Below the pieces are notes generated by a model. That model made no database searches and was not told where the DNA came from. It saw nothing but the letters and a program-made list of their open reading frames with translations. A stretch of 64,000 nt of DNA from Shinella zoogloeoides (GTDB taxonomy: Bacteria > Pseudomonadota > Alphaproteobacteria > Rhizobiales > Rhizobiaceae), in NCBI RefSeq assembly GCF_020883495.1, contig NZ_CP086610.1:1841501-1905500 (forward strand), given 5' to 3'. This document shows, in pieces, positions 7,368 through 22,726 of the stretch. The translations under genes were made by a program, and so were the position numbers. The number at the start of each line of letters is the position of its first letter. Position 1 is the stretch's first letter.

Positions 7368-8384
7368 TTACGAACGGTTGCTGACGCCCGCCTGAACGAA
7401 GGTCGCCATGCCGGAATGGCAGGCCGCCGCCGACTTGACGATGCCGGCCGCCAGCGCCGCGCCGGTGCCCTCGCCCAGCCGCATGCCGAGCGCCAGCAGC
7501 GGCGTCTTGCCGAGCTTCTCGATGGACTTCAGGTGCCCCGGCTCGGCCGATACATGGCCGATCAGGCAATGGTCGAGCGCCGAGGGATTGGCCGCGCGAA
7601 GAACGGCGCCGGCCGCCGTCGCCACATAGCCGTCGATGATGACGGGGATTTTCTGCATGCGGGCGGCAAGGATCGCCCCGGCCATGGCCGCGATCTCGCG
7701 GCCGCCGAGGCGGCGCAGCACTTCCAGCGGATCGGACAGATGCGCGCGGTGCAGGTCGACGGCCTTCTTCACGGCCGCGATCTTGCGCTGCAAAACCTCG
7801 CCCTCAGAGCCGGTGCCCGGGCCGACCCATTCCTCCGCCGTGCCGCCATAGAGCGCCAGGTTGATCGCCGCCGCGATGGTCGTGTTGCCGATCCCCATCT
7901 CGCCGACGCACAGGAGGTCCGTGCCGCCGGCGACGGCTTCCATGCCGAAGGCCATGGTGGCGGCGCAGTCGCGCTCGGAAAGCGCCGCTTCCTCGGTAAT
8001 GTCGGCGGTCGGATAGTCGAGCGCGAGGTCGAAGACCTTGAGGCCGAGGTCGTGCGCCACGCAGATCTGGTTGATCGCCGCGCCGCCGGCCGCGAAGTTC
8101 TCCACCATCTGCGCCGTGACGGAGGACGGATAGGGCGTGATGCCCTGCCTGGTGACGCCGTGGTTGCCGGCGAAGATGGCGACCAGCGGGCGCGTGACGG
8201 CCGGCGCGCGGCCGGTCCAGGCGGCGAGCCAAAAGGCGATCTCCTCCAGCCGGCCGAGCGCGCCCGGCGGCTTGGTGAGCTGCGAATCCCGTTCGCGCGC
8301 GGCCACCAGCGCGGCCGAATCGGGGCCGGGAAGGTTGCGCAGCAATTCACGGAAATCATCGAACGGCAGGCCGCTGGCACTCAT
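7368..8384 (-). CDS. cobT: Nicotinate-nucleotide--dimethylbenzimidazole phosphoribosyltransferase
   Basis: 338 aa. It makes alpha-ribazole phosphate from nicotinate mononucleotide and dimethylbenzimidazole, for the lower ligand of cobalamin. Recognisable blocks are RDSQLTKPPGALGRLEEIA near residue 30, IFAGNHGVTRQGITPYPS, MGIGNTTIAAAINLALYGG with the phosphate-binding loop, and a C-terminal RLGEGTGAALA containing the conserved glutamate. Length matches the family. It is divergent from cobS (189 bp between starts), the gene for the enzyme that uses its dephosphorylated product, so coordinated expression is plausible. I saw no cobalamin riboswitch in the shared gap. Confidence 0.95.
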   Translation of the reverse strand: MSASGLPFDDFRELLRNLPGPDSAALVAARERDSQLTKPPGALGRLEEIAFWLAAWTGRAPAVTRPLVAIFAGNHGVTRQGITPYPSSVTAQMVENFAAGGAAINQICVAHDLGLKVFDLALDYPTADITEEAALSERDCAATMAFGMEAVAGGTDLLCVGEMGIGNTTIAAAINLALYGGTAEEWVGPGTGSEGEVLQRKIAAVKKAVDLHRAHLSDPLEVLRRLGGREIAAMAGAILAARMQKIPVIIDGYVATAAGAVLRAANPSALDHCLIGHVSAEPGHLKSIEKLGKTPLLALGMRLGEGTGAALAAGIVKSAAACHSGMATFVQAGVSNRS

Positions 8385-8572
8385 CTTGGGGAATTCCTTG
8401 CTTGGAGCTTTTCAAAGGCGGGTGTCTGGTGTCGTCAGCGGTCTTTTCCGCAATCGCGGACGCAAAACCGCTGCGCGCTTTCGCTGGAACTGCTTAATAG
8501 AGCGAGGGCGCGAATCCGACAACCGCATTTGCGGCGGCCACCGTCGCCTTTTGCCAGGAGGGGCTTTTCAAG

Positions 8573-9355
8573 GTGAGCATACGGGACTTCATCGACGACA
8601 CGGCACGCTCCGTCGCCTTCCTTTCGCGCGTGCCGATGCCGCAGCGCCATTTCATCGGCTATGACGGAAGGCTGTCGCGCGCGGTGCGGGCCTTCCCGCT
8701 TGCCGGCGTGCTGATCGTGCTGCCGGCGGCCGCGCTCGCCGCCCTGCTCTCGGCCTTCCATGCCCCGCCTGCCTTGCTCGCCATCTCCACCCTCGCCCTG
8801 CAGGTGCTCGTCACCGGCGCGCTGCACGAGGACGGGCTTTCCGACAGCGCCGACGGCATCGGCGGCGGGCGGGACCGCGACAGCGCACTCGCCATCATGA
8901 AGGACAGCCGCGCCGGCTCCTATGGCGTCGTGGCGCTCATTCTCTCCTTCGGCCTGCGCGCCGCCGCCATCGCCGCGCTCGCGGCGGTCCTCACCCCGTC
9001 CGGCCTCGGCATGGCGCTGCTGGCCGTCGCCGCCGCCAGCCGCACCGCCATGGTCTGGCACTGGTCGCTGCTGCCGCCGGCCCGCCGCGACGGCGTCGCC
9101 GCCTCGGTCGGCGAACCGGAAAACAGCGCGACGCTCTTCGCGCTCGCCAGCGGCATCGGGATATCCGCCCTGCTGCTCCTGCCGCACGGCACTGTGGCCT
9201 CCTTCGCGCTTGCATCGGCCGCCGCCGTGCTTGCCGTCCTCCTCTTCAACCGTATTGCGCTGCGCAAGATCGGCGGCCATACGGGCGATACGATCGGCGC
9301 GACGCAGCAGCTTGCGGAAATGTCGGTTCTCTTCTCCCTTGCCTTGGCGCTTTGA
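8573..9355 (+). CDS. cobS: Adenosylcobinamide-GDP ribazoletransferase
   Basis: 260 aa polytopic membrane enzyme (CobS, called CobV in Pseudomonas) that joins alpha-ribazole to adenosylcobinamide-GDP to complete cobalamin. The diagnostic block is TGALHEDGLSDSADGIGGG followed by RDRDSALAIMKDSRAGSYG, with aspartates that bind metal and GDP. Several hydrophobic helices follow (residues about 35-60, 105-140, 175-220), ending with RKIGGHTGDTIGATQQLAE. The start is GTG at 8573 with a strong ribosome site (CCAGGAGGGG) about 11 bases upstream. It is followed by the small DUF1289 gene 36 bp later. Confidence 0.95.
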   Translation: MSIRDFIDDTARSVAFLSRVPMPQRHFIGYDGRLSRAVRAFPLAGVLIVLPAAALAALLSAFHAPPALLAISTLALQVLVTGALHEDGLSDSADGIGGGRDRDSALAIMKDSRAGSYGVVALILSFGLRAAAIAALAAVLTPSGLGMALLAVAAASRTAMVWHWSLLPPARRDGVAASVGEPENSATLFALASGIGISALLLLPHGTVASFALASAAAVLAVLLFNRIALRKIGGHTGDTIGATQQLAEMSVLFSLALAL

Positions 9356-9391
9356 GCTACCGATATTGAAAAGACAGAGACCGGAGACCCG

Positions 9392-9613
9392 ATGGAATCG
9401 CCCTGCATCCTCGTCTGCTCGATCGATATGGTGACCGGATATTGTTTCGGCTGCGGCCGCACGCGCGACGAAATCGGCGCCTGGACGCTCTACACGCCGG
9501 AGGAGCGCCGCGCGATCATGGCCGCGCTGCCGGCCCGGCTCGAAACCGTCGAGCGCAAGCCGCGTCGCGAGACCCGGCGGTCGCGCATGGCGCGGGAGCG
9601 CGGCGAGGCATGA
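9392..9613 (+). CDS. DUF1289 domain protein
   Basis: 73 aa. It has the DUF1289 cysteine pattern SPCILVCSIDMVTGYCFGCG (C-x3-C-x8-C-x2-C), which could bind zinc or an iron-sulfur cluster, followed by GRTRDEIGAW and TPEERRAIMAALPARL. The C-terminus is strongly basic. Function is unknown. Its stop overlaps the start of the aspartyl protease gene by four bases (ATGA), so they are translationally coupled. The start at 9392 has GGAGA upstream. Confidence 0.85.
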   Translation: MESPCILVCSIDMVTGYCFGCGRTRDEIGAWTLYTPEERRAIMAALPARLETVERKPRRETRRSRMARERGEA

Positions 9614-10308
9614 GGCTCTATATCCTTCTCGGCATCCTCGCGGCCGGTCTTGCCCTTCTCATCCTCAACCATGACGGCGGGCGCACGCTCGGCCTCGACA
9701 ACGACGACTTCGGCCGGCTCGTCACCCTTTCGGCCATCGGCACGATGATGGCCGCCGGCATCCTGGCGAGCCGTCGACAATGGGGCGAGAGCCTGCGCCA
9801 GGCCGCCATCTGGCTGGTCCTCATCCTCGCGCTCGCCACCGCCTATCTCTATCGCTTCGACCTGCAGGAAATCGGCAACCGCCTGACCGCCGGCCTGATC
9901 CCCGGCCGCGCCGTCGTGACGACCGGTGCAAGCGGCGAGGAAATCCTCGTCATCCACAAGGGCCTCTCCGGCCATTTCGAGGCGGACGTGACCATCGACG
10001 GCACGCCGCTGCGCATGCTGGTGGATACGGGGGCAAGCTCCGTGGTGCTGTCCTACGACGACGCCATGCGTCTCGGCATAAACCCGGACAACCTCGTCTT
10101 CTCCATCGAGGTCTCCACCGCCAACGGCCGGGCGCGCGCCGCGCCCGTGACGCTGCGCGAGGTCGCCATCGGCCCCATCCTGCGCGGCACGATCCGCGGC
10201 ATGGTCACCGAGCAGGGCCGGCTCGACCAGAGCCTCCTCGGCATGAGTTTCCTGGAAACCCTCGGCTCCATCGAGATCACCCGCGACGAATTGCGGCTGA
10301 AGGACTGA
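9610..10308 (+). CDS. Membrane-anchored retropepsin-like aspartyl protease (TIGR02281 type)
   Basis: 232 aa. It has three N-terminal hydrophobic segments (LYILLGILAAGLALLIL, LVTLSAIGTMMAAGILA, AAIWLVLILALATAYLY) and then a single retropepsin-like domain from about residue 115. The catalytic motif is MLVDTGASSVVLSYDDA (DTGAS), followed by VSTANGRARAAPVTL and a C-terminal LLGMSFLETLGSIEI that matches the clan AA fold. One domain per chain implies a dimeric active site, probably facing the periplasm. Substrates of this bacterial family are not known to me. The coupled DUF1289 gene is a recurring style of neighbour for it in rhizobia (from general knowledge, not checked). Confidence 0.85.
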   Translation: MRLYILLGILAAGLALLILNHDGGRTLGLDNDDFGRLVTLSAIGTMMAAGILASRRQWGESLRQAAIWLVLILALATAYLYRFDLQEIGNRLTAGLIPGRAVVTTGASGEEILVIHKGLSGHFEADVTIDGTPLRMLVDTGASSVVLSYDDAMRLGINPDNLVFSIEVSTANGRARAAPVTLREVAIGPILRGTIRGMVTEQGRLDQSLLGMSFLETLGSIEITRDELRLKD

Positions 10309-10312
10309 ACCC

Positions 10313-11074
10313 TCAGTTCTTCAGCTTGTACCCGGTCTTGAAGATCCAGGCCGTGATCGACAGGCACACGACGAGAAAGCCGAGCACCGTCACGAGGCTG
10401 ACGACGGGGTTCACGTCGGCGATCTCGAAGAAGCTCCAGCGGAAGCCGGAGACGAGGTAGAGCACGGGATTGAAGTGGCTGACGGCCTGCCAGAAGGGCG
10501 GCAGCATGTCGATGGAGTAGAAGCTGCCGCCGAGGAAGACGAGCGGCGGGATGATCAGCATCGGGAAAATGTTCAACTGCTCGAAATCCTTCGCCCAGAT
10601 GCCGATCATGAAGCCGAACAGCGAGAAGCTCACCGCCGTCAGCACGAAGAACAGCACCATCATGACCGGATGCTTGATCGATATGTCGACGAAGAGCGAG
10701 GCCGTGATCAGGATGATCGTGCCGACGATCAGCCCCTTGGTCGCCGCCGCTCCGACATAGCCGATGACGATCTCCAGCATCGAGATCGGCGAGGAGAGGA
10801 TCTCGTAGATCGTGCCGGTGAATTTCGGGAAATAGATGCCGAAGGAGCCGTTGCCGATGCACTGGTTGAGCAGCGTGAGCATGATGAGGCCGGGCGCGAT
10901 GAAGGCGCCATAGGGCACGCCCTGCACCTCCTGCATGCGCGAGCCGATGGCCGCGCCGAAGACGATGAAATAGAGCGAGGTGGTGATGACGGGCGAGACG
11001 ATGCTCTGCAGCAGCGTGCGGCGCGTGCGCGCCATCTCGAATGCGTAGATGGACTTGATCGCCTCGAAGTTCAT
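10313..11074 (-). CDS. ABC-2 type transporter permease
   Basis: 253 aa with six predicted transmembrane helices of the ABC-2 exporter type. The N-terminus [20 protein letters not shown] precedes the first helix ([18 protein letters not shown]). The typical motif region [18 protein letters not shown] and the later [20 protein letters not shown] are present. Its start codon overlaps the stop of the ATPase gene by four bases (ATGA), so both are one operon and form one exporter. The substrate is not evident: drug, polysaccharide or lipid are possible in this family. It converges with the aspartyl protease gene four bases away. Confidence 0.9.
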
Positions 11075-11997
11075 TTGCCTGTCCCTACCAGTTCCACGAA
11101 AATGTCTTCCAGCGAACTCTGCTCGGTGGAGATGTCCTTGACCCGCAATCCGCACTGGGAGAGCGCGGAGAGCAGCGACGAGATACCCGTCCGCTCGCCG
11201 GACGAGTCGAATTCGTAGACGAGCCGTTGCCCCTCGCCGGACAGCGTGAGCCCATAGGGCGACAGCACGTCGGGAATGGCGGCGATCGGCTCGGCAAGCT
11301 CGACGGTCATCTGCTTGCGGCCGAGCTTGGCCATCAGCGCCTCCTTCTCCTCCACCAGCAGGATCTTCCCATGGTTGATGACGCCGATGCGGTCGGCGAT
11401 CTCCTCCGCCTCCTCGATGTAATGCGTCGTCAGGATGATGGTGACGCCGGAGGCGCGCAGGCGCTCGACGAGCTGCCACATGTCCTTGCGCAGCGACACG
11501 TCCACGCCCGCCGTCGGCTCGTCGAGGAACAGCACCTTCGGCTCGTAGGACAGCGCCTTGGCGATCAGTACGCGCCGCCGCATGCCGCCCGACAGATGGC
11601 GCAGCACCGTGTCCTTCTTGTCGTAGAGCGAGAGGTCCTTCAGGATGCGCTCGATCAGCGCCGGGTCCGGCTTGCAGCCATGCAGGCCGCGCGAGAAGGC
11701 CACCGTGTTCCACACCGTCTCGAAGGCGTCGAGCGTCAGTTCCTGCGGCACGAGGCCGATGATGGAGCGCGTCTTGCGGTAATCGCGCAGGATATCGTGC
11801 CCCGCCACCGTGACGCTGCCGCCGCTCGGCGTGACGATGCCGCAGATGATCGAGATCATCGTCGTCTTGCCAGCGCCGTTCGGCCCGAGCAGCGCGAGGA
11901 TTTCCCCCTGCTCGATATCGAGGTCGACGCCCTTCAGCGCCTGAAAGCCCGTTGCGTAGCTCTTGGTGAGATTGCGAATGGAAACGATGGGCGCCAT
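11071..11997 (-). CDS. ABC-2 exporter ATP-binding protein
   Basis: 308 aa. The nucleotide-binding domain occupies about residues 1-230: Walker [13 protein letters not shown]-loop IIGLVPQEL, signature [10 protein letters not shown], Walker [14 protein letters not shown] and switch His in [13 protein letters not shown]-terminal extension of about 70 residues, typical of DrrA/CcmA-like exporter ATPases, follows. It is cotranscribed with the overlapping permease gene downstream. Start 11997 is an ATG. The AT-rich stretch at 12040-12090 between it and the TSUP stop may contain its promoter. Confidence 0.92.
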
Positions 11998-12090
11998 GGG
12001 AGGGTCCGGAAAGAGGAAGAGACGTGCGGAAGGACACCCTATATGGCGTGCCCTTCGTCAATTTTCACCCGTCGCAGGGAAAAAATTCGC

Positions 12091-12912
12091 TTACCCGTAA
12101 ATGCTGACGAGGAAGCGCAACGACACCAGCAGCAGGAAGACGCCGAAGCCCACTTCAAGCTGCCGCTTGCTCATCGAATGCGCCAGCTTGACGCCCCAGG
12201 GCGTGACGACGAGGGCGATGGGTACGATAAGGGCGACGGCGATCCAGTTGATGAAGCCGGTGGAGCCGGGCGGCAGGCCCGCCGCGCCCCAGCCGGCCCA
12301 GACATAGCCGATGATGCCGGGAATGGAGATGAGCACGCCGACGCCCGAGGACGTCGCCACCGCCTGGTGGATCGGCCGGCCGAAGGAGGTCATGTAGGTG
12401 TTGTTGAGCACGCCGCCGCCGATGCCCATGAGGCCGGACAGCGTGCCGATGACGACGCCCGCGATCTGGTTGGCGAGCCCCGTCGGCAGCGTGTCGCCCA
12501 CCCGCCAGCTTTCCCGGTTGAACAGCATGCGCAGGGCGACCAGCAGCGCGATGGCGACGAAGACGAGGCGCAGGCCGACGCTCGATATCACCGCCGCGAT
12601 GACCGAGGCGAGCACCGCCCCGAGCGGCAGCGCGACGATCCAGCTCTTCAGGAGCGCGGTATCGACCGCGCCGCGCTTGCGGTGCGAGGTGTAGGAGCGG
12701 ATGGAAGTCGGCACGATGATGGCGATGGAGGTGCCGATGGACAGATGCATGCGCACCGCATCCGGCACGTCGAGATAGCCGAACACCTGATAGAAGACCG
12801 GCACCAGGATCGCCCCGCCGCCAATGCCGAAGATGCCTGCCAGCAGGCCGGAAACCACCCCGGCGGCGGCAAGCGCGATGGCGAAGAGGACGAGATCGGC
12901 AATGGGCGGCAT
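12091..12912 (-). CDS. TSUP (TauE/SafE) family membrane transporter
   Basis: 273 aa with about eight hydrophobic segments in two related halves. Each half begins with the family glycine motif: LLAGIFGIGGGAILVPVF near residue 25 and LSGLMGIGGGVLNNTYMTSF near residue 155. Such proteins export sulfite, sulfoacetate or related anions, or take up organosulfur compounds; the substrate here is unknown. Start 12912 (MPPIADLVL) has GGGAG seven bases upstream; a longer reading to 12978 is less likely. No sulfur-metabolism gene is adjacent. The 354 bp upstream of the start holds the candidate small RNA described separately. Confidence 0.88.
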   Translation of the reverse strand: MPPIADLVLFAIALAAAGVVSGLLAGIFGIGGGAILVPVFYQVFGYLDVPDAVRMHLSIGTSIAIIVPTSIRSYTSHRKRGAVDTALLKSWIVALPLGAVLASVIAAVISSVGLRLVFVAIALLVALRMLFNRESWRVGDTLPTGLANQIAGVVIGTLSGLMGIGGGVLNNTYMTSFGRPIHQAVATSSGVGVLISIPGIIGYVWAGWGAAGLPPGSTGFINWIAVALIVPIALVVTPWGVKLAHSMSKRQLEVGFGVFLLLVSLRFLVSIYG

Positions 12913-13020
12913 GGAAGGCTCCCGGCAGGATCGTCGCGCGGGGGCGACTCGCGAGAATTCGCGCGGACAGGCCGCCAACTGTCATCAAACCGTGATCGAT
13001 TTCAACCATTCTCCCGGCGA

Positions 13021-13249
13021 GACCGAAGGAACGGCCTGCGCCCCGCCTGCCGATCCTTCCCGACGCCGCCCCCTCGGCGTCGGGCTGCGGCCTCGCCCCG
13101 GCGGCCCCATCCGCCCGCTTCCTCCCCGTGGAAGCCTCGCATGCATCCCCGCCGGCGTCCCCCGGCGCGGACAACGGAACGTGACAGTTCCAGGCAGAGC
13201 CGAACGCACCTGCCGCCCTCTTCGACCGGCGCCCCGCCGGTCTTTTTTT
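13021..13249 (+). ncRNA. Candidate small RNA with C-rich hairpin loops and an intrinsic terminator
   Basis: The gap 12913-13266 has no convincing gene but holds a run of hairpins on the plus strand. GAAGGA (13025-13030) can pair with TCCTTC (13054-13059). CCCGACGCCG (13059-13068) pairs perfectly with CGGCGTCGGG (13075-13084) around a CCCCCT loop. GCTTCC (13117-13122) pairs with GGAAGC (13130-13135) around TCCCCGT. CGCCGG (13150-13155) pairs with CCGGCG (13162-13167). A strong terminator ends it at 13249. Both flanking genes run on the minus strand, so this terminator serves neither. C-rich loops recall rhizobial small RNAs whose loops pair with ribosome sites. The 5' end and promoter are not determined. 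Confidence 0.45.
13224..13249 (+). terminator. Orphan plus-strand intrinsic terminator
   Basis: GACCGGC (13224-13230) pairs with GCCGGTC (13236-13242) around GCCCC, and seven T residues follow at 13243-13249. On the minus strand there is no T-run after the stem. The nearest plus-strand gene upstream ends at 10308, so the terminator implies a separate plus-strand transcript here. Confidence 0.8.
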
Positions 13250-13266
13250 GCCGTCGGCTCAGGCGT

Positions 13267-14493
13267 CTACAGGCTGCAATGCCGGTAGCCGGACTTGCGG
13301 GCGCGCAGGTCGAAATGGAAATGGTCCTTGTGGAAGCGGTCGCTGCCCGGGCCGAGCACGGTGGAGAAATATTTGCAGCTATCGCCGCGCACCGATTTCA
13401 GCAGCCCCTTCTCCCGGAAGGCGAAGAAGCCCTTCTTCTCGATGACGATGGTCTTGCCGGTCTTCAGCACGATCTTGCCGACGTCGATGGCGTTGCCCTT
13501 GGCATGTTCCGACATGGCCGCCCCCTTCTGCGAATTCATGGTGCGGCAGGAATAGGACGACATCTGGTGGATGGCGGAGACGCCCGAGAGATAGCGCGTG
13601 CGGGTGGACGGCACGAGTTCCTGCTTCACCCAGCGCGCGAAGGCTTCCGTGATCCGGCAGTTCACCTGCGCGGCCGGTTTGATCTGGATGCCGCCGGAAA
13701 GGCCCGAAAGCTCCACCGGCCAGTCGATGCCGCAGGAGCGGCCGCGGGAAATGCGCGGCACGTCGCGGAATTTCACGCCGAGCTTGACCAGCCGCTGCCG
13801 GCAGGCCTTTTCCGAGGCCGGCATGCCGCCCATCGTTTCGGGCACCTGCATCGGATCGTTGAGCCGCGGCAGGAACGCGACCTGATCCCCCTCCACCGCC
13901 TGCCGGCGGCGGGTCGTCGCCTTGTCCGGCACGCGCAGATAGCCCTCGCTCTCCGCCGCGCCGAGTTCGGCACCGCCCTCGGACATCGGGATCGGCTCAC
14001 CGACCTGTTGCGGCGTATCCGTGCCGATGCCGCCGACGACCACCTGGCTGGCATTGCCCTCGGCGATCTCGTTGGCCTGCGCCTCCGCAAGGCCCTCGAC
14101 GCGCCCGACGCCCAGCCCGGCGTCCATGTTGACGCCGCCCTCGGGCACGGTCAGCACGCCGGAAGACGCCTGCACAGGCTGGGAAATGCCCATCGCCTCG
14201 TCGCTGTCGATCATCGGCAGGCGCTTCTGCTGGCGCGCGGGCGTCGCCATGGCGGCATTCGCTTCGCCGGCCTGGCCGACAGGCTCGCTTGAGACATAGG
14301 CCGCGTCGCCGCCGGTATCGCCCGCCTCGCCGGCTGGCACGCGGGAAATGACCTCGACGGGCTGGATGGCGCTGACGCCGCCGCCGTCGATATCGTCGGG
14401 CGGCATCAGACCACCGGAGCAGGCAGCCAGCATCGCCGGGGCGACAAGCAGCCCAAGCGGCCTGCGGAGACGAGAAACAAACGCAATACCCAT
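13267..14493 (-). CDS. Extensin-like domain lipoprotein
   Basis: 408 aa. The N-terminus is a lipoprotein signal (RRPLGLLVAPAMLAACSGG; lipobox LAAC, Cys near residue 21). Residues about 25-215 are low-complexity, acidic and rich in Gly, Val, Ala and Pro, probably a disordered linker across the periplasm. The extensin-like C-terminal domain (from about residue 225) contains CGIDWPVELSGL, a conserved CRTM..., HAKGNAIDVG and near the end FHKDHFHFDLRA. These resemble the metal-binding motifs of M15/LD-peptidase folds. It may act on peptidoglycan; this is inference. Start 14493 has GGAAG upstream; a preceding in-frame stretch is rejected. Confidence 0.8.
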   Translation of the reverse strand: MGIAFVSRLRRPLGLLVAPAMLAACSGGLMPPDDIDGGGVSAIQPVEVISRVPAGEAGDTGGDAAYVSSEPVGQAGEANAAMATPARQQKRLPMIDSDEAMGISQPVQASSGVLTVPEGGVNMDAGLGVGRVEGLAEAQANEIAEGNASQVVVGGIGTDTPQQVGEPIPMSEGGAELGAAESEGYLRVPDKATTRRRQAVEGDQVAFLPRLNDPMQVPETMGGMPASEKACRQRLVKLGVKFRDVPRISRGRSCGIDWPVELSGLSGGIQIKPAAQVNCRITEAFARWVKQELVPSTRTRYLSGVSAIHQMSSYSCRTMNSQKGAAMSEHAKGNAIDVGKIVLKTGKTIVIEKKGFFAFREKGLLKSVRGDSCKYFSTVLGPGSDRFHKDHFHFDLRARKSGYRHCSL

Positions 14494-14687
14494 TGTCACT
14501 TCCGCCCGGCGTCCGGTTGCGCACGATGCGGATCCCGGTTTCGCACGTTCATGTCCGGCGATGGTGCAGGCCGCTTTTGTCCGCATTCGGACGCAAGGGG
14601 CGCAAAATCCGCACCGCAGGCCGACAGCCCTGCATTTCCAGAGGATTTTGTCGCAACAGGGTAAAGGAATGGTTCCCGCCGGATACG

Positions 14688-14715
14688 AAAACCCCGGCGC
14701 TTGGCAGCGCCGGGG
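14688..14715 (-). terminator. Intrinsic terminator of the chemoreceptor gene
   Basis: Read on the minus strand, CCCCGGCGCT and AGCGCCGGGG form a perfect ten-base stem (14692-14701 with 14706-14715) with a four-base loop, followed by TTTT (14688-14691 on the plus strand are AAAA). It lies 28 bp after the chemoreceptor stop codon. Confidence 0.8.
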
Positions 14716-14742
14716 CAAGGATTCGGACGGTGCGTTGAGCCT

Positions 14743-16560
14743 CTAGGCGGCGCGCCGCCGCTGGTCCGTTGCGGCCGCGTTCAGCCGGAAATTCCCGAGC
14801 AGCGTGCGCAGATGCTCGCTTTCCTTGGTCAAGGTCTGGCCGGCGGCGTTGGTCTCTTCCACCATGGCGGCATTCTGCTGGGTCATCTGGTCCATCTGGT
14901 TGACGGCCGTGTTGACCTCGGCAAGACCCGTCGCCTGCTCGCGGGCGGAGGTGGCGATGGACGTCACCTGCTCGTTGACGCGGTTCACCAGCGTCTCGAT
15001 CTCGGTCAGCGCATCGCCCGTGGAGCGCACCAGCGCGACACCCGTGCCGACTTCGGCGGCCGAGTTGCTGATCAGGCCCTTGATCTCCTTGGCCGCATTG
15101 GCCGAACGCTGGGCAAGCTCGCGCACCTCCTGCGCAACGACCGCAAAGCCCCTGCCCGCCTCGCCCGCCCGCGCCGCCTCGACACCGGCATTGAGCGCCA
15201 GAAGGTTGGTCTGGAAGGCGATCTCGTCGATGACGCCGATGATCTGGCTGATGCGGCTGGACGCATCCTCGATGCGGCTCATCGCGGAAACGGCGTCACG
15301 CACGATGGTGCCGGAACGGCTTGTCGACTGCGTCGTCTCGGTCACCATGCGGCTCGCCTCGGCCGCACGGTCGGAGGCGTTGCGCACCGTCGCGGTGATC
15401 TCGTCGAGCGCCGCCGCGGTCTCCTCGAGGGAAGCGGCCTGCTGCTCGGTGCGGTGCGACAGGTTGTTGGCCGCCTCCGCGATACCCGAGGCGCTACCAT
15501 GCACGATGTCGGTGGAGTGGGCGATGGCGTTGATGACGCTGGAGAGCGCATCCACCGCCCGGTTGAAGTCCTCGCGGAGCTTGGCATATTCCGGCGCGAT
15601 GGCATCGATGGAGACCGTGAGGTCGCCATTGGCAAGACGCTCCAGCGCCTCGCCGACGGTGTGCATGGCGTCGGCCTGGCTCTGGCTGACGGAGCGCTGG
15701 CGGCGTTCGCCCTCGCTGCGCTCGGCATCGAGCCGCGCCTGCTGCTCGCCCTCGCGGATGCGCATTTGCGCACGCTCGGCAACGGAGTCGCGCAGGATCG
15801 AGACCACCTTCGCCATCTCGCCGATCTCGTCCTTGCGGTCGGTCTCCGGCACCTCGCTGGAAACATCCTCCTCGGCGATGGCCTGCATAGAGGCGTTGAG
15901 CCGCAGGATCGGCCGGGTCACGCTCTTCACGATGGCATAGGCGGCAAGGATGATGGCAAGGCCGCCACCGGCCAGGATGATCGCCATGCCGATGGCGTTG
16001 CGGCGGAACATGGCCGCAAGGTCATCCGCATAGACGCCCGTGCCGACGATCCAGCCCCAGGGCGCGAAGCCCGCGACATGGGAATATTTCAGCACCGGCT
16101 CCTCGAAGCCCGGCTTCGGCCAGTAGTAATCCACGAAATCCTGCCCGGTCGGGCTGGCCTTCACGGCCTTCACGAATTCGGTGAAGATGTGCTTGCCCGT
16201 CGGGTCCGCCATGCCGGACTGGTCCGTACCGTCGAGCGCCGGCTTGATCGGGTGCATGACGATCACGGCGTTCATGTCGTTGATCCAGAAATAGCCGCTG
16301 TTCTCGTAGCGCAGCGCCCGCACGGCATCCTTCGCCCGCGCCTGCGCTTCCTCGCGCGTCAGCGTGCCGGCGGTCTCAAGCTCGTGGTAATACTTGAAGA
16401 GCGTCAGCATGTTCTCGTCCATGGCGGCAAGCTTGGACTTGCGCTCGGCGACCATCGCATCCTGATAGTGGTAAAGGCTGTAGACGAGCGCGGCGGCGAA
16501 GATGGTCAAGGCGAGGCCGACAAGCAACGACAGGCGCGTGGATATTCTGAAATTCTTCAA
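14743..16560 (-). CDS. Methyl-accepting chemotaxis protein with Cache sensor domain
   Basis: 605 aa receptor. TM1 ([20 protein letters not shown]) is followed by a periplasmic single-Cache domain (about residues 35-185) with [20 protein letters not shown] and [13 protein letters not shown]. Then TM2 ([20 protein letters not shown]), a HAMP domain, and the MCP signalling domain with hairpin tip [20 protein letters not shown] and [19 protein letters not shown]. Cache receptors of this type usually bind small organic acids or similar metabolites. No C-terminal CheR-tether pentapeptide is obvious (ends DQRRRAA). It is a monocistronic gene with its own terminator; no che genes are near. Confidence 0.93.
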
Positions 16561-16643
16561 CGGACTCTCCCCGACTTCAGGAGCATGGCGCCCCTCAAGG
16601 TCGAAAATCCCGAAAACCCTTTAAGAACGTCTAAAATTACAAT

Positions 16644-16658
16644 CATCAAATTTTGATG
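16644..16658. promoter_or_regulatory. Palindrome in the chemoreceptor/yciA divergent region
   Basis: CATCAAA T TTTGATG is a perfect 7+1+7 palindrome located 84 bp upstream of the chemoreceptor start and 98 bp upstream of the thioesterase start. It has the form of a regulator binding site; the regulator is unknown. Confidence 0.35.
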
Positions 16659-16755
16659 GTCGGGAATACTCGTGTCCACGTGCCCCGGGGGCGGCGGCCC
16701 TCTTTCTCCCCGGCCCGCATTCGGCTAGACCGAAGGAAAGAGGAGAGGACATCGC

Positions 16756-17142
16756 ATGACCGACAGCAAGACGCCGAACGGCCAGCTCACCCTGCGCACG
16801 CTCGCCATGCCGGGCGACGCCAACGCGGCCGGCGACATTTTCGGCGGCTGGGTCATGGCGCAGATGGACCTTGCCTCGGGCATCCGTGCCGCCGAGCGCG
16901 CGCAGGGCCGCGTCGTCACCGCCGCGGTCAAGGAAATGGCCTTCCAGCTTCCGGTCAAGATTGGCGATACGCTCAGCATCTACACGGACATCGCCCGCGT
17001 CGGCCGCACGTCGATCACGCTCACCGTCGAGGCCTGGGCGCAGCGCTATCTCACGACCACGCTGGAAAAGGTAACGGCCGCGACCTTCGTCATGGTCGCG
17101 CTCGACCTGAACGGCCACCCGACGCCCGTTCCGGTCGAATAG
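16756..17142 (+). CDS. yciA: Acyl-CoA thioesterase, YciA/hotdog family
   Basis: 128 aa hotdog-fold thioesterase. It should hydrolyse acyl-CoAs in the cytosol. Key blocks are LRTLAMPGDANAAGDIFGGW, with the catalytic aspartate and asparagine region, followed by VMAQMDLASGIRA; then KEMAFQLPVKIGDTLSIYTD and RTSITLTVEAWAQRY. The length equals that of E. coli YciA. A strong ribosome site (GAGGAGAGG) precedes the ATG at 16756. It converges with the DUF486 gene five bases after its stop. Confidence 0.9.
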   Translation: MTDSKTPNGQLTLRTLAMPGDANAAGDIFGGWVMAQMDLASGIRAAERAQGRVVTAAVKEMAFQLPVKIGDTLSIYTDIARVGRTSITLTVEAWAQRYLTTTLEKVTAATFVMVALDLNGHPTPVPVE

Positions 17143-17147
17143 CCCGA

Positions 17148-17501
17148 TCAGCCCTTGAAGACGAAAGCCGCACCGGCGGCGATCAGCATGAAGCCGATGG
17201 CGTGGTTCCAGGTCAGGCTTTCCTTCAGCCAGAACACGGAGAAACCGGCGAAGACCAGCAGGGTGATGACCTCCTGGATCGTCTTGAGCTGCGCGGCCGA
17301 ATAGACCTCATGGCCGATGCGGTTTGCCGGCACCGCCAGACAATATTCGAAGAAGGCGATGCCCCAGCTCGCCAGGATGGCGATGAAGAGCGGCGCGGAC
17401 TTGAACTTGAGGTGCCCGTACCAGGCGAAGGTCATGAAGACGTTGGAGAGGCAGAGCAGCACGATCGGCCAGACGGCCGCGGGATTGAGGCTGAAGGGCA
17501 T
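17148..17501 (-). CDS. DUF486 / DMT-like small membrane protein
   Basis: 117 aa with four hydrophobic helices: VWPIVLLCLSNVFMTFAWYG, PLFIAILASWGIAFFEYCLA, TIQEVITLLVFAGFSVFWL and AIGFMLIAAGAAFVF. The motifs NVFMTFAWYGHLKF and EYCLAVPANRIGH are those of the DUF486 family, related to small drug/metabolite transporters. Transport function is presumed, not known. Start 17501 (MPFSLNPAA) has CAGGA eight bases upstream. The gene is alone, back to back with the GGDEF-EAL gene. Confidence 0.88.
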   Translation of the reverse strand: MPFSLNPAAVWPIVLLCLSNVFMTFAWYGHLKFKSAPLFIAILASWGIAFFEYCLAVPANRIGHEVYSAAQLKTIQEVITLLVFAGFSVFWLKESLTWNHAIGFMLIAAGAAFVFKG

Positions 17502-17680
17502 CGGCGAATCCTGACAGGAGAAAGCTCCCACCGGGATAGCCGGACCATCGCCGCCGTCAAGTCCGGGCCTCATGGATTCTCGCGATCCCCCGTTAAGACA
17601 ATCTTATGCCCGCCCACCCACCATCCACGTTGAGCCGCAACACGTCCGCAAGGCGGCGCCCCTTCAGGCCGGAAACACGA

Positions 17681-19678
17681 ATGAGCGATGCAAGCCGGCT
17701 GATGCCGGCGGATGAACCGACAAGACGCCAGATCCTGTCCGCGCAGGCGCTCTCCCTGCTGGACGGCGTCGTGCTGTCGCTCGTCGCCAACAGTTTCCTT
17801 GCCGCGACGACCGCCGCCGTGCTCTGGCTCGACGGGCCGAATGTCCAGGTCCTGCTGTGGCTCGCCGCCGTGCTGGCGATCAATCTCGCACGCTATATCG
17901 GCGTGCGCATCGTCCGCCGATTGAACTGCGCGGTGGAGCGGCCGAGGCGCGCGCTCGGCGTGCTCTCGCTCGGCGCCATCGGCGGCGGCCTCGCCTGGAG
18001 CCTGCCGCCCTTCATCGGCGCGGCGCACGGGGCGGAAGGGCTCAACCCCTATCTCATCTTCATCATCGGCGGCATCTGCGCCGGCTCGCTGATGCAGAGC
18101 ACCGCCTATGCCCGCACCGCCCTGCTCTTCTCCGGCCCGCCGCTCGCCGCCGCCTTCGTCTCGCTGCTGATCGCCGGCACGACGGAAGCCTTCGTCATCG
18201 CCGCCGACGCGCTGCTGCTCGCGATCATGATGCTGCGCGCCAGCCAGCTCAGCGAGGCGGGCTTCATCCGCAGCCAGATCGACCGGCTGAAGGCCGTGGC
18301 GCTCGCCGCCTCGCTGTCCGACGCCAATGCGGAAATCCGCCAGTCCTACCACCAGCTCGCCTCGCTTGCGAACCGCGACCCGCTGACCGGCCTCGGCAAC
18401 CGCGCGCTCTTCAACCAGCGCCTGCGCGGCCTGCTTTCGAGCGGCGTGCAGCCCGACCGGCTCGCCCTGCTCGCCATCGACCTCGACCGCTTCAAGGCGA
18501 TCAACGACACGATGGGCCACGGCGCGGGCGATGCGGTGCTGGTCGAGATCGCCAGCCGCCTCGCCAGCCTCACCGGCCCGACCGATACCGTCGTGCGCCT
18601 CGGCGGCGACGAATTCGCCGTCATCGTCGACGGCAAGGCGGCCGAAGCGCGCGGGCGCGAGATCGGCGAAGGCATCGTGCGGCTGGCCGGCGACCCCATC
18701 CTCATCGGCGGCCGACCCGTCACCGTCGGCGCCAGCGCCGGCCTCGCCCTGCATCCGCAGCACGGCGAGACGGCGGACGCGCTCTTCGCCAGCGCCGACA
18801 TCGCGCTCTACGCCGCCAAGGAAGGCGGACGCCGCCGCCTCGGCCTGTTCAACCCGGAACTGAAGGCCCGCATCGAGCGTCAGCGCCTCATCGAGGCGAC
18901 GCTGGCGGAGGCCGTCGAGAGCCGGCAGTTGCAGGTGGTGTTCCAGCCGCAGGTGGCGCTTGCCGGCGGCGCCGTCATCGGCTTCGAGGCCCTGCTGCGC
19001 TGGTCGCATCCCGAACTCGGCCCGGTCGCCCCGCCGGATATCGTGCGCGCCGCCCATGCGCTGCATATCTCCACGGCGCTGACCGGCTATGTCGCCACCC
19101 GGGCCGCCGAGCTGCTGCGCACCCTGCCCCGCCTCGGCCTGCCGGAAGCGGCCGTCGCGGTGAACGTCTCCCCGCGCGAATTCTCCGGCGACACCCTGTC
19201 CCACCTGCTGATCGAGATCGCCCGCACACACGAGGTCTCCCCGGCCCTGATGGAGATCGAGATCACCGAGGAGGCGACGCTCGACACCCAGGCCGCCGGC
19301 GCGGAACTGGCCCGCCTGGAAGCCGCCGGCTTCCGCCTCGCCGTCGACGATTTCGGCGTCGGCCATTCCTCGCTGGCCTATCTCGTCAGCCTGCATATCG
19401 ACCGTCTAAAGATCGACCGCAGCTTCGTCACCGGCCTTGCCAGGAGCCGCGAGAACCAGGCCCTCATCGCCGCGCTCGTCGGCATCGGCCGGGCGCTCTC
19501 CATCGATATCGTCGTGGAGGGCGTGGAAAGCGAGGAGGAGGCGGAGGTGCTGCGCATACTCGGCTGTCGCCACGCCCAGGGCTACTATTTCGCCCGCCCC
19601 ATGGCCGCCGCCGAGATTCCGCGCTGGCTCGACCAGCACGCCGCACGCTTCCAGCAGGCCGCGGCCGGCAGCCCGTAG
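17681..19678 (+). CDS. Membrane-bound GGDEF-EAL cyclic-di-GMP enzyme
   Basis: 665 aa. The first 190 residues hold about six hydrophobic helices with no recognised sensory domain. The GGDEF domain has an intact RLGGDEFAVI signature (about residue 308) and DPLTGLGNRALF upstream, but no RxxD inhibitory site before the signature (sequence there is GPTDTVV). The EAL domain is complete: GFEALLRW, VNVSPREF, MEIEITEEA, VDDFGVGHSSLAYL, KIDRSFV, VVEGVE and AQGYYFARP. Both synthesis and hydrolysis of c-di-GMP are therefore possible from sequence. Start 17681 (MSDASRLM) was chosen for its GGA site and plausible N-terminus; an earlier ATG at 17606 is in frame. Confidence 0.9.
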   Translation: MSDASRLMPADEPTRRQILSAQALSLLDGVVLSLVANSFLAATTAAVLWLDGPNVQVLLWLAAVLAINLARYIGVRIVRRLNCAVERPRRALGVLSLGAIGGGLAWSLPPFIGAAHGAEGLNPYLIFIIGGICAGSLMQSTAYARTALLFSGPPLAAAFVSLLIAGTTEAFVIAADALLLAIMMLRASQLSEAGFIRSQIDRLKAVALAASLSDANAEIRQSYHQLASLANRDPLTGLGNRALFNQRLRGLLSSGVQPDRLALLAIDLDRFKAINDTMGHGAGDAVLVEIASRLASLTGPTDTVVRLGGDEFAVIVDGKAAEARGREIGEGIVRLAGDPILIGGRPVTVGASAGLALHPQHGETADALFASADIALYAAKEGGRRRLGLFNPELKARIERQRLIEATLAEAVESRQLQVVFQPQVALAGGAVIGFEALLRWSHPELGPVAPPDIVRAAHALHISTALTGYVATRAAELLRTLPRLGLPEAAVAVNVSPREFSGDTLSHLLIEIARTHEVSPALMEIEITEEATLDTQAAGAELARLEAAGFRLAVDDFGVGHSSLAYLVSLHIDRLKIDRSFVTGLARSRENQALIAALVGIGRALSIDIVVEGVESEEEAEVLRILGCRHAQGYYFARPMAAAEIPRWLDQHAARFQQAAAGSP

Positions 19679-19762
19679 CGCATTCGCCCGGCACGAAAAT
19701 TCGTTTCCCTTTTGTACTCATCCCCTCTTTTCTTTCGGCATGACTCTCGCCATATTCCCCGC

Positions 19763-22726
19763 ATGGCCAGATCTCCGAAAAAACCCTCCGCCTCGAACCC
19801 CGGTTTCGAGGAAGCCCCCCAGTCCGACTTCGAAGGCGCGCCGCTCAGCGGCAGCGTCTCCGACTGGGTGAAGCAGCTCGAGGCCGAGGCGGAAGCCTCC
19901 GGCATCGAAAGCCGCCGCGAGGTCGCCTCCAAGGCGGGCAAGCACCGCAAGACGGTGGAGAACGCCGCACGCCGCCACACCGAACAGGTAACAGCCACGA
20001 AAACCTCCCGCGGCGTCTCCATCGGCGCATCGTCCGATCCGAAGACCCGCGCCGCCGCCGGCCTCAATCCCGTCTCCGGCCTCGACGTCTCGCTGGAAGA
20101 CGCCGCCACCCTCAGCGCCGGCACGGCCGTCACCGCCACGGTGGAGGCGCTTTCGGCGCTCATCGAGAGCGGCAACCCGCTGTTCAAGGACGGCAAGCCC
20201 TGGACGCCGCACCGCCCCGCCCGCCCGGAAAAATCCGAGGGCGGCATCCCCATCCGCATGGTCAGCGAATACAAGCCGGCGGGCGACCAGCCCACCGCCA
20301 TCGGCGATCTCGTCGGCGGCCTCTCCTCCGGCGAGCGCAGCCAGGTGCTGCTCGGCGTCACTGGCTCGGGCAAGACCTTCACCATGGCCAAGGTGATCGA
20401 GGAAACCCAGCGCCCCGCCGTCATCCTCGCGCCGAACAAGACGCTGGCCGCCCAGCTCTACAGCGAGTTCAAGAACTTCTTCCCCGACAACGCGGTCGAA
20501 TATTTCGTCTCCTACTACGATTATTACCAGCCGGAAGCCTATGTGCCGCGCTCCGATACGTTCATCGAGAAGGAAAGCTCGATCAACGAGCAGATCGACC
20601 GCATGCGCCACTCCGCGACGCGCTCGCTGCTGGAGCGCGACGACTGCATCATCGTCGCCTCGGTCTCCTGCATCTACGGTATCGGCTCGGTCGAGACCTA
20701 CACCGCCATGACCTTCCAGATGGAGGTGGGCGAACGACTCGACCAGCGCCAGCTCCTCGCCGACCTCGTCGCCCAGCAATACAAGCGCCGCGAGATGGAT
20801 TTCCAGCGCGGCTCCTTCCGCGTGCGCGGCGACACCATCGAAATCTTCCCCGCCCACCTTGAGGATGCCGCCTGGCGCATCTCCATGTTCGGCGACGAGA
20901 TCGACGCCATCACCGAATTCGACCCGCTGACCGGCCAGAAGACCGGCGACCTGAAATCGGTGAAAATCTACGCCAACAGCCACTACGTCACCCCGCGCCC
21001 CACTCTCAATGGCGCCATCAAGGCCATCCGCGAGGAGCTGAAGCACCGCCTCGTCGAGCTGGAAAAGGCCGGCCGCCTGCTCGAGGCCCAGCGCCTGGAG
21101 CAGCGCACGCGCTACGACCTGGAAATGCTGGAGGCCACCGGCTCCTGCGCCGGCATCGAGAACTATTCGCGCTACCTCACCGGCCGCCGCCCCGGCGAGC
21201 CGCCGCCGACCCTTTTCGAATACATCCCCGACAACGCCTTGATCTTCATCGACGAAAGCCACGTCACGATCCCGCAGATCGGCGCCATGTACCGGGGCGA
21301 CTTCCGCAGAAAGGCGACGCTGGCCGAATACGGCTTCCGCCTGCCCTCCTGCATGGACAACCGCCCGCTGCGCTTCGAGGAATGGGACGCCATGCGCCCG
21401 GACACGATCGCCGTCTCGGCGACGCCCGGCGGCTGGGAACTGGAGCAGTCCGGCGGCGTCTTCGCCGAACAGGTCATCCGCCCGACCGGCCTCATCGACC
21501 CGCCGGTCGAGGTGCGCCCGGCGAAAAGCCAGGTGGACGACGTTCTCGGCGAAATCCGCGAGACCGCCGCCGCCGGCTACCGCACCCTCGTCACCGTGCT
21601 CACCAAGCGCATGGCCGAAGATCTTACCGAATACCTGCACGAGCAGGGCGTGCGCGTACGCTACATGCACAGCGACATCGACACGCTGGAGCGCATCGAG
21701 ATCATCCGCGATCTTCGCCTGGGCGCCTTCGACGTGCTCGTCGGCATCAACCTGCTGCGCGAAGGCCTCGACATTCCCGAATGCGGCTTCGTCGCCATCC
21801 TCGACGCCGACAAGGAAGGTTTTTTGCGCTCGGAAACCTCTCTGGTCCAGACCATCGGCCGCGCGGCGCGAAACGTCGACGGCAAGGTCATCCTCTATGC
21901 CGACCAGATCACCGGCTCCATGCAGCGCGCCATGGACGAGACGACCCGCCGCCGTGAAAAGCAGGTCGCCTATAACGAGGCGAACGGCATCACCCCGGAA
22001 TCCGTGAAGGCGAAAATCTCCGACATCCTCGACAGCGTCTACGAGCGCGACCACGTCCGCGCCGACATTTCCGGCGTCTCCGGCAAAGGCTTTGCGGATG
22101 CCGGCCACCTCGTCGGCAACAACCTCAAGGCCCATCTCGAAGCGCTCGAAAAACAGATGCGCGACGCCGCCGCCGACCTCGACTTCGAAGCCGCCGCCCG
22201 CATCCGCGACGAGATCAAGCGCCTCAAGGCCGCCGAACTCGCCGTCATGGACGACCCGATGGCACGCCAGGAGGCGTCGAGTGCCGAAGGCGCAAGGGGG
22301 AAAACCAAAGGAGCGGCGTCGAGCGCCGAAAGCGCAAAGGGCGGCGCGAGAAATGAACCGTCGAAATCCCTCTTCCAGAAACCGTCTCTGGACGACATGG
22401 GCCCCGGCACCGACACCGAACGTCCGCTCTTCCGCAAGCCGGACCTCGACGAGATGGGCCGCGACGTCGCCACACCGGCCGGCAAGTCCCTCTTCCGCAA
22501 AAACACCCTCGACGAAATGACTGTCGGCCGCACCGAAAAACCTGTTACCGGCGACCTGCCGGAGCGCCCGGACGAGACCCTCTCCACCAAGAAGCGCACC
22601 GCGCCCCTGCCCGATGAACCGAAGCCGGTTCGCCGGGAGAAAATCGGTGTAGGGAGTTACGAAGACCCGGCGGAGGCCAAGCGCAAGGGGCGCACCAAGG
22701 GCAAGACAGGGCGGCCGGGACAGTAA
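19763..22726 (+). CDS. uvrB: Excinuclease ABC subunit B with long N- and C-terminal extensions
   Basis: 987 aa, against about 670 for E. coli UvrB. The core is canonical: Walker [15 protein letters not shown] near residue 197, beta-hairpin region [19 protein letters not shown], Walker [15 protein letters not shown], helicase motifs [26 protein letters not shown] and QTIGRAARN, and a C-terminal UVR domain ([20 protein letters not shown]) near 790. An extra 150-residue N-terminal region (charged, then mixed) precedes the core. A tail of about 160 residues follows, containing three LFxKxxLDxM repeats at 870-919. Start 19763 (MARSPKKPS) is preferred over 19712. It functions in nucleotide excision repair. 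Confidence 0.95.

Follow-up and report, generated by a model that had tools for sequence, protein, structure and literature searches.

Repeated hairpins with C-rich loops are a feature of the CcsR/Cuckoo RNAs of Rhodobacter, in which the loop motif is CCUCCUCCC. Three further small RNAs (sRNAs) serve here as points of comparison, each as described in the covered parts of the cited papers. PmaR, an Agrobacterium sRNA that pairs with its targets through a C-rich single-stranded loop, is made of one spoon-like hairpin with a single loop and has been reported only in Agrobacterium and Rhizobium sp. IRBG74 (PMC6234868). EcpR1 (SmelC291), which is encoded between divK-pleD and rpmG, has two stem-loops, a 101-nt main form and the loop UCCGCCGCAUCU (PMC4414408), while GspR (SmelC775), an RNA of 143-144 nt flanked by SMc03844 and SMc03845 about 145 kb from the origin (PMC5928217), is reported among the families mostly restricted to Sinorhizobium/Ensifer (PMC3927594).

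Here, we describe an element in Shinella that, judged by its sequence, is most likely a free-standing sRNA gene missing from the annotation. The best overall explanation, which we regard as probable, is that this gene is activated by an OmpR-family regulator (most likely PhoB) and that its RNA pairs with mRNAs through C-rich loops.

Locus, predicted promoter and predicted RNA

Within the window (the whole 64-kb stretch of DNA that was analysed), the element occupies a gap (12913-13266) between a TauE/SafE permease gene (PF01925, start codon at 12912) and an Extensin-like_C gene (PF06904, stop codon at 13267). Both genes are on the minus strand, as are two neighbouring ABC-transporter genes, in agreement with the initial annotation, for which all surrounding genes ran on that strand. 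The candidate is divergent from the permease gene and convergent with the extensin-like gene, and its predicted 3' end (Table 1) precedes the stop codon of the latter. The seven top named matches to the permease protein (among the best 80 of 365) are all from Shinella (L055-L061). A little further along, on the minus strand, the conserved upstream region of an ABC-transporter gene (12031-12100, with TTGAC and TATAGGG) is the junction at which Shinella genomes have or lack the permease gene.

Table 1. Features of the candidate sRNA gene, with positions in the window; loops are in square brackets where stem letters are given
Feature	Position	Strand	Basis
Operator CTGTCATCAAACCGTGAT, two 7-nt half-sites, 4-nt spacer, Pho-box-like	12979-12996	+	15 consecutive invariant columns, 18 Shinella copies
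-10-like hexamer CATTCT, exactly 10 nt 3' of the operator	13007-13012	+	A at position 2 and T at position 6 invariant
Predicted sRNA, about 231 nt	13019-13249	+	Start from -10 rule; end is the last T of the terminator
Hairpin, loop CCCCCT (13069-13074)	13060-13083	+	Minimum-energy fold; form special to the window's species and genome G004
Hairpin GGCGG[CCCCAT]CCGCC, loop 13105-13110	13100-13115	+	Minimum-energy fold; helix 2, 96.7% of cells paired
Hairpin GCTTCC[TCCCCGT]GGAAGC, loop 13123-13129	13117-13135	+	Minimum-energy fold; helix 3
Hairpin GCCGG[CGTCCC]CCGGC, loop 13156-13161	13151-13166	+	Minimum-energy fold, covariation sets
Hairpin GGAAC[GTGACA]GTTCC, conserved GTGAC loop	13176-13191	+	Minimum-energy fold, alignment
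Stem GGCAG/CTGCC	13193-13214	+	Minimum-energy fold; helix 6, 85.7% paired, absent from two copies
Intrinsic terminator, 8-pair stem, 3-nt loop, seven T	13224-13249	+	Stem columns invariant in 18 copies

The alignment of 18 Shinella copies shows no variation over 15 consecutive columns, GTCATCAAACCGTGA, and a constant, gap-free distance from the operator to the -10-like hexamer; a nineteenth copy (genome G005) has an operator with one change, ATCAAGCCGTGA. There is no TTGACA-like hexamer in the -35 place, and a search for a standard sigma-70 promoter on the plus strand in 8000-20000 found none. With the RNA start set 7 nt past the -10 hexamer, a rule given in the covered part of PMC2573895, the operator, the 10-nt spacing and the -10-like hexamer therefore predict a start near 13019 and an RNA of 231 nt.

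Pho boxes consist of two CTGTCAT repeats with a 4-nt spacer (PMC3131613), and those of S. meliloti that overlap the -35 region lie 22-25 nt upstream of the start, which is the range expected of a PhoB-dependent promoter and includes the 22 nt that separate the operator box from the predicted start (PMC3616915; both papers covered in part). When the operator is set against CTGTCAT-N4-CTGTCAY, its first half-site is exact and its second, CCGTGAT, has two mismatches that never revert within Shinella, which argues against a plain Pho box. Its own genome holds 36 sites at the operator's level of Pho-box match (6 of them better) vs 14 when the pattern is reversed. In the pst promoter of this genome, GTTTCGTCAAACCGACAT, 12 of 18 positions equal the operator consensus, and TCAAACCG is common to the two (pst promoters were located by string search in 11 of 21 loci). 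The foremost candidate for the regulator that would act on this operator is PhoB. Two others were discarded by inspection, since the motifs given in the covered parts of the respective papers do not fit the operator: ChvI (N-GCC-N8-GCC and TTGC-N3-GCAA; PMC9731502) and CenR (TGA-N8-TGA; PMC9275681). In PMC3687685, the part covered gives no motif letters.

Two side observations concern the same genome (G000). It has 14 more operator-like sites with three mismatches (vs 1 in the reversed control), one of them about 1.5 kb upstream of pstS, and these might be weaker targets of the same regulator. A Pho-box-like CTGTCATCGAACTGTAAC (L050; G000:C1:3477000-3479700) stands upstream of two frames that resemble, by eye, bacterioferritin-associated ferredoxin and bacterioferritin.

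At the other end of the element, the terminator is the sole site on either strand of the window that combines a perfect stem of 7 or more pairs with a run of 6 or more T behind it, and this strict rule finds 0 sites in 60 dinucleotide shuffles. It is thus, as the initial annotation had it, the lone strong plus-strand terminator, and even over a much longer stretch under the strict rule. A loose match alone would prove nothing, since loose terminator-like sites in 8000-20000 are about as numerous as in shuffles (7 vs 6.0 +/- 2.5).

The predicted 231-nt RNA folds at -113.2 kcal/mol (z -4.7), and the C-rich loops CCCCCT, TCCCCGT and CGTCCC that had been noticed at the outset are all present in the minimum-energy fold. 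Fold energy cannot tell the strand, because in a comparison of the two the minus strand (z -4.18) scores like the plus strand (z -4.20). Similarly, the C-rich loops of the window's RNA are conserved and not statistically odd, since its unpaired CCCC runs (4) match those in shuffles of its C-rich sequence (mean 3.7). Across 30 folded sequences – the window and 29 hand-picked loci, of which L102 and L114 have no located terminator end and L105 was cut before the terminator – a hairpin loop with CCCC occurs in 25 and a z of -2.0 or lower in 24.

Conservation in Shinella and homologues in other genera

The element is widespread in Shinella: a DNA search with 12900-13300 found it in most genomes, and 19 of 21 have a match to an RNA model built from its 3' part. 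This model (R1), like alignment A2, was made from 16 of 18 Shinella copies, with L009 and L011 left out, and it has six further matches (27.9-30.9 bits) in six Shinella genomes. Shinella forms of the RNA are 204-249 nt long. The element stays while both flanking genes change: in 8 of 17 aligned copies (L003, L010-L014, L016 and L017; by inspection) the upstream neighbour is the ABC-gene upstream region and not the permease gene, and in 12 genomes the conserved end of the extensin gene is found 0.4-1.4 kb past the element instead of adjoining it. These comparisons support the view that the promoter block, the hairpin body of about 230 nt and the plus-strand terminator are inherited together while the neighbours change. 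Two genomes have apparently lost the RNA and offer natural losses usable for comparison, i.e. G013 (L022), where the element is gone and the ABC-gene upstream region runs up to the extensin gene, and G016 (Shinella pollutisoli; L019/L061), where a worn operator remains and the RNA body is missing.

A covariance search, which the initial annotation had proposed as a check, gave a weak result within Shinella and a clear one once three distant homologues were added. Within the genus, the stems show little variation, with 95.4% of cells paired. Both partners have changed in 2 of 40 pairs; 119 of 500 shuffles, and slid versions of the structure too, give at least as many. Upon addition, via the model, of L028 (G005), L105 (Rhizobium alarense) and L150, compensatory changes appear at 12 of 33 pairs, which 0 of 500 shuffles reach (slid versions have at most 5), a result favoured by the fact that this 21-sequence alignment was fitted to the model's structure. 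The hairpin that has the TCCCCGT loop in the window keeps its pairing in every one of the 21 sequences, and 4 of its 5 modelled pairs show compensatory changes.

Beyond Shinella, the element was followed through the best 80 of 365 permease loci, 7 of which are from Shinella. An operator matching at least 13 of 16 positions lies within 175 nt of the permease start in 37 of these 80 loci and is absent at that threshold from the other 43; the reversed operator occurs in none. Behind it, a perfect-stem terminator follows in 28 of the 37 (vs 2 of 37 in a reversed-stretch control) and is lacking in 9. Five Agrobacterium loci (L090, L116, L121, L125 and L129) have a diverged operator, TTGTCACAAACATGTGAC, followed by a terminator. 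Of 297 family genomes, 20 contain the pattern TGTCAYSAAACSGTGAY, at 21 sites in total, and the reversed control has none. Behind 14 of 15 operator sites from other genera there are both a C-rich hairpin and a terminator-like hairpin that has a T run (partly by inspection). R1, searched in 55 sources, has matches at the expected place in L060 (53.5 bits), L105 (39.4 bits) and L150 (36.8 bits). One genome has a second operator copy (L145, the remaining one of the 15 sites; G217:C159, 6100-7700), which precedes an apparent small exported-protein frame and no sRNA-like element.

In Ensifer/Sinorhizobium and others, the RNA takes a short form of 91-109 nt that comprises (i) a small 5' hairpin, (ii) the stretch TGATTTGCA, (iii) in most cases a hairpin whose loop is C-rich, for example TCTCCCCCTATT, and (iv) a terminator, the loop of which is often C-rich too. 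The stretch TGATTTGCA is identical in all 20 short-form RNAs of alignment A3, the rows of which were hand-picked from loci already seen to have the short form. RNAalifold yields 11 pairs on A3, 1 of them changed on both sides, a poor result due to misaligned terminator arms. At the matching place, 7 of 18 Shinella copies have TTTGCACCCC and the window's species has CCTGCGCCCC, which makes a link to the short-form stretch only a suggestion. The composite of operator and TGATTTGCA was found in 0 of 397 genomes drawn from the order; 21 of these are in the family, including two (G000 and G098) with the operator and no TGATTTGCA, and the zero therefore shows only that the strict short form was unseen outside the family in that draw.

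Several loci have peculiarities of their own. TGATTTGC is doubled within the RNA of L151, L152 and L153, three of the short forms in A3, as if a pairing site had been copied. Inserts with palindromic parts, resembling repeat elements common in rhizobial gaps, are found between promoter and RNA body in L083 (a longer one) and directly 3' of the terminator in L073.

Proposed mechanism and alternative readings

The plus-strand sRNA gene of about 230 nt put forward in the initial annotation is well supported by the conserved promoter block, hairpins and terminator, by the exchange of both neighbours and by the fact that no reading frame is kept throughout. A predicted promoter and terminator in a gap, an apparently non-coding body and conservation as a unit are also what would place it among the trans-encoded bacterial sRNAs in general. 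In the mechanism that we propose, an OmpR-family response regulator, most likely PhoB, would bind the operator in place of a -35 box and recruit the housekeeping polymerase, and a transcript would be formed from the predicted start (about 13019). The C-rich hairpin loops of this RNA – and, in other genera, the single-stranded UGAUUUGCA stretch as well – would pair with mRNAs, probably near ribosome-binding sites, and Hfq might sit at the U tail.

The main rival, which we hold to be improbable, is a decoy RNA, whose repeated C-rich hairpins would titrate a protein or another RNA instead of pairing with mRNAs. It could draw on the several hairpins of one kind per RNA and on loops that are alike between genera when the stem letters are not, but the short forms elsewhere have just one or two such loops and keep the linear TGATTTGCA stretch as strictly as the loops. 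Rather less plausible is a local regulator, i.e. an RNA whose effect, by itself or through its transcription, is confined to the convergent extensin-like gene or the divergent permease gene. The 15 operator sites of other genera, 12 of which are beside an extensin-like gene and 7 beside a permease gene, would fit such a role, as would synteny with cobT (a match 4.7-9.1 kb from the operator in 5 of 5 genomes from four genera). Against it stand two loci (L144 and L146) with neither gene within the 1.6 kb examined, the many Shinella in which one or both neighbours differ, and a terminator that would stop the RNA short of the extensin stop codon.

In the window, 66 nt separate the operator from the permease start codon, and in 37 loci (of the best 80 of 365) the operator is near the permease start, which raises the possibility, in our view a very slim one, that it serves the divergent gene, the terminator and hairpins being incidental. 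However, the gene on one side changes, whereas the operator, the spacing, the hairpins and the terminator on the other are retained, and the conserved -10 positions are found on the RNA side only. The weakest reading of all, and one that is hardly credible, makes the element a short coding RNA or a leader to a plus-strand gene: a 154-codon plus-strand open frame (12824-13288) does cross the element, and 6 of 18 Shinella copies share a frame of 32-36 codons that starts with TTG at nt 61-66 of the RNA, but the aligned copies differ by many 1-2 nt indels, 6 of 18 copies have no frame of at least 15 codons, the window's copy has an 18-codon GTG frame elsewhere only, no frame is common to all 18, and the next downstream gene is convergent.

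Returning to a free-standing sRNA gene whose RNA would pair with mRNAs, its operator is better conserved than the RNA itself; this speaks for a single activator and means that the inducing signal can be tested for directly. A bolder and more tentative proposal, to which we lend less than even credence, is that of a Rhizobiaceae-wide sRNA family of the PhoB phosphate-starvation response, in which the operator would serve almost only this RNA, and a fast-changing body would keep a C-rich loop, a short linear seed and the terminator. If the element is what we propose, it represents a widely conserved sRNA family without an Rfam entry, in a group that includes nitrogen-fixing symbionts and Agrobacterium, and the differing forms between genera show what such an RNA keeps (loop, short linear stretch and terminator). 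Should the PhoB reading hold, the rhizobial Pho response would gain a post-transcriptional arm.

Comparison with known small RNAs

Rfam 15 has 0 matches at gathering score in the window; across 11 related loci, the one match at cut-off is an FMN riboswitch, which lies elsewhere in L090. Far below cut-off are weak matches to anti-hemB in L028 (E 0.015) and to Bp1_781 in L143 (E 0.065). In the window, the best weak match (12987-13089) is sX13 of Xanthomonadaceae (RF02232), which resembles the candidate by its C-rich loops and is rejected at 18.6 bits vs a cut-off of 50 (E 0.36). The CcsR/Cuckoo RNAs of Rhodobacter share with it the repeated hairpins and C-rich loops, but their motif CCUCCUCCC is absent from 12979-13249.

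We take SMc00704-SMc00709 to be the likely S. meliloti region of the locus, and a literature search for these tags found no paper. Searching the literature by sequence strings gave, among the matches listed, only UGAUUUGCA or TGATTTGCAC and no operator or loop strings. Published RNA-seq lists for S. meliloti or Agrobacterium may already contain the RNA as an entry without a name, since their supplementary tables lie outside such searches. As for GspR, the aconitase gene presumably adjoins SMc03845, and in 5 of 5 genomes (no named S. meliloti among them) at least 0.58 Mb separate the present locus, beside cobT, from the nearest full-length aconitase gene of the contig; the candidate thus most likely differs from GspR. 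The two are alike in that GspR has three stem-loops and a gene convergent with its downstream neighbour (PMC5928217, part covered). None of the families in the covered parts of PMC3927594 has the candidate's neighbours, and a term search of the covered part of PMC2873474 gave no matches.

The remaining two sRNAs are compared as the covered parts of the respective papers describe them. PmaR is, like the candidate, a Rhizobiaceae RNA with a C-rich loop, but it has one hairpin and a narrow range (PMC6234868), whereas the candidate has several hairpins and is found in 19 of 21 Shinella and in several genera. EcpR1 differs in its neighbours, which in the candidate's case are the permease and extensin-like genes, with cobT 4.7-9.1 kb off, and in its loop UCCGCCGCAUCU, from which the candidate's loops differ; it is a stress-type rhizobial trans-sRNA that, like the candidate, has a conserved loop and a syntenic locus (PMC4414408).
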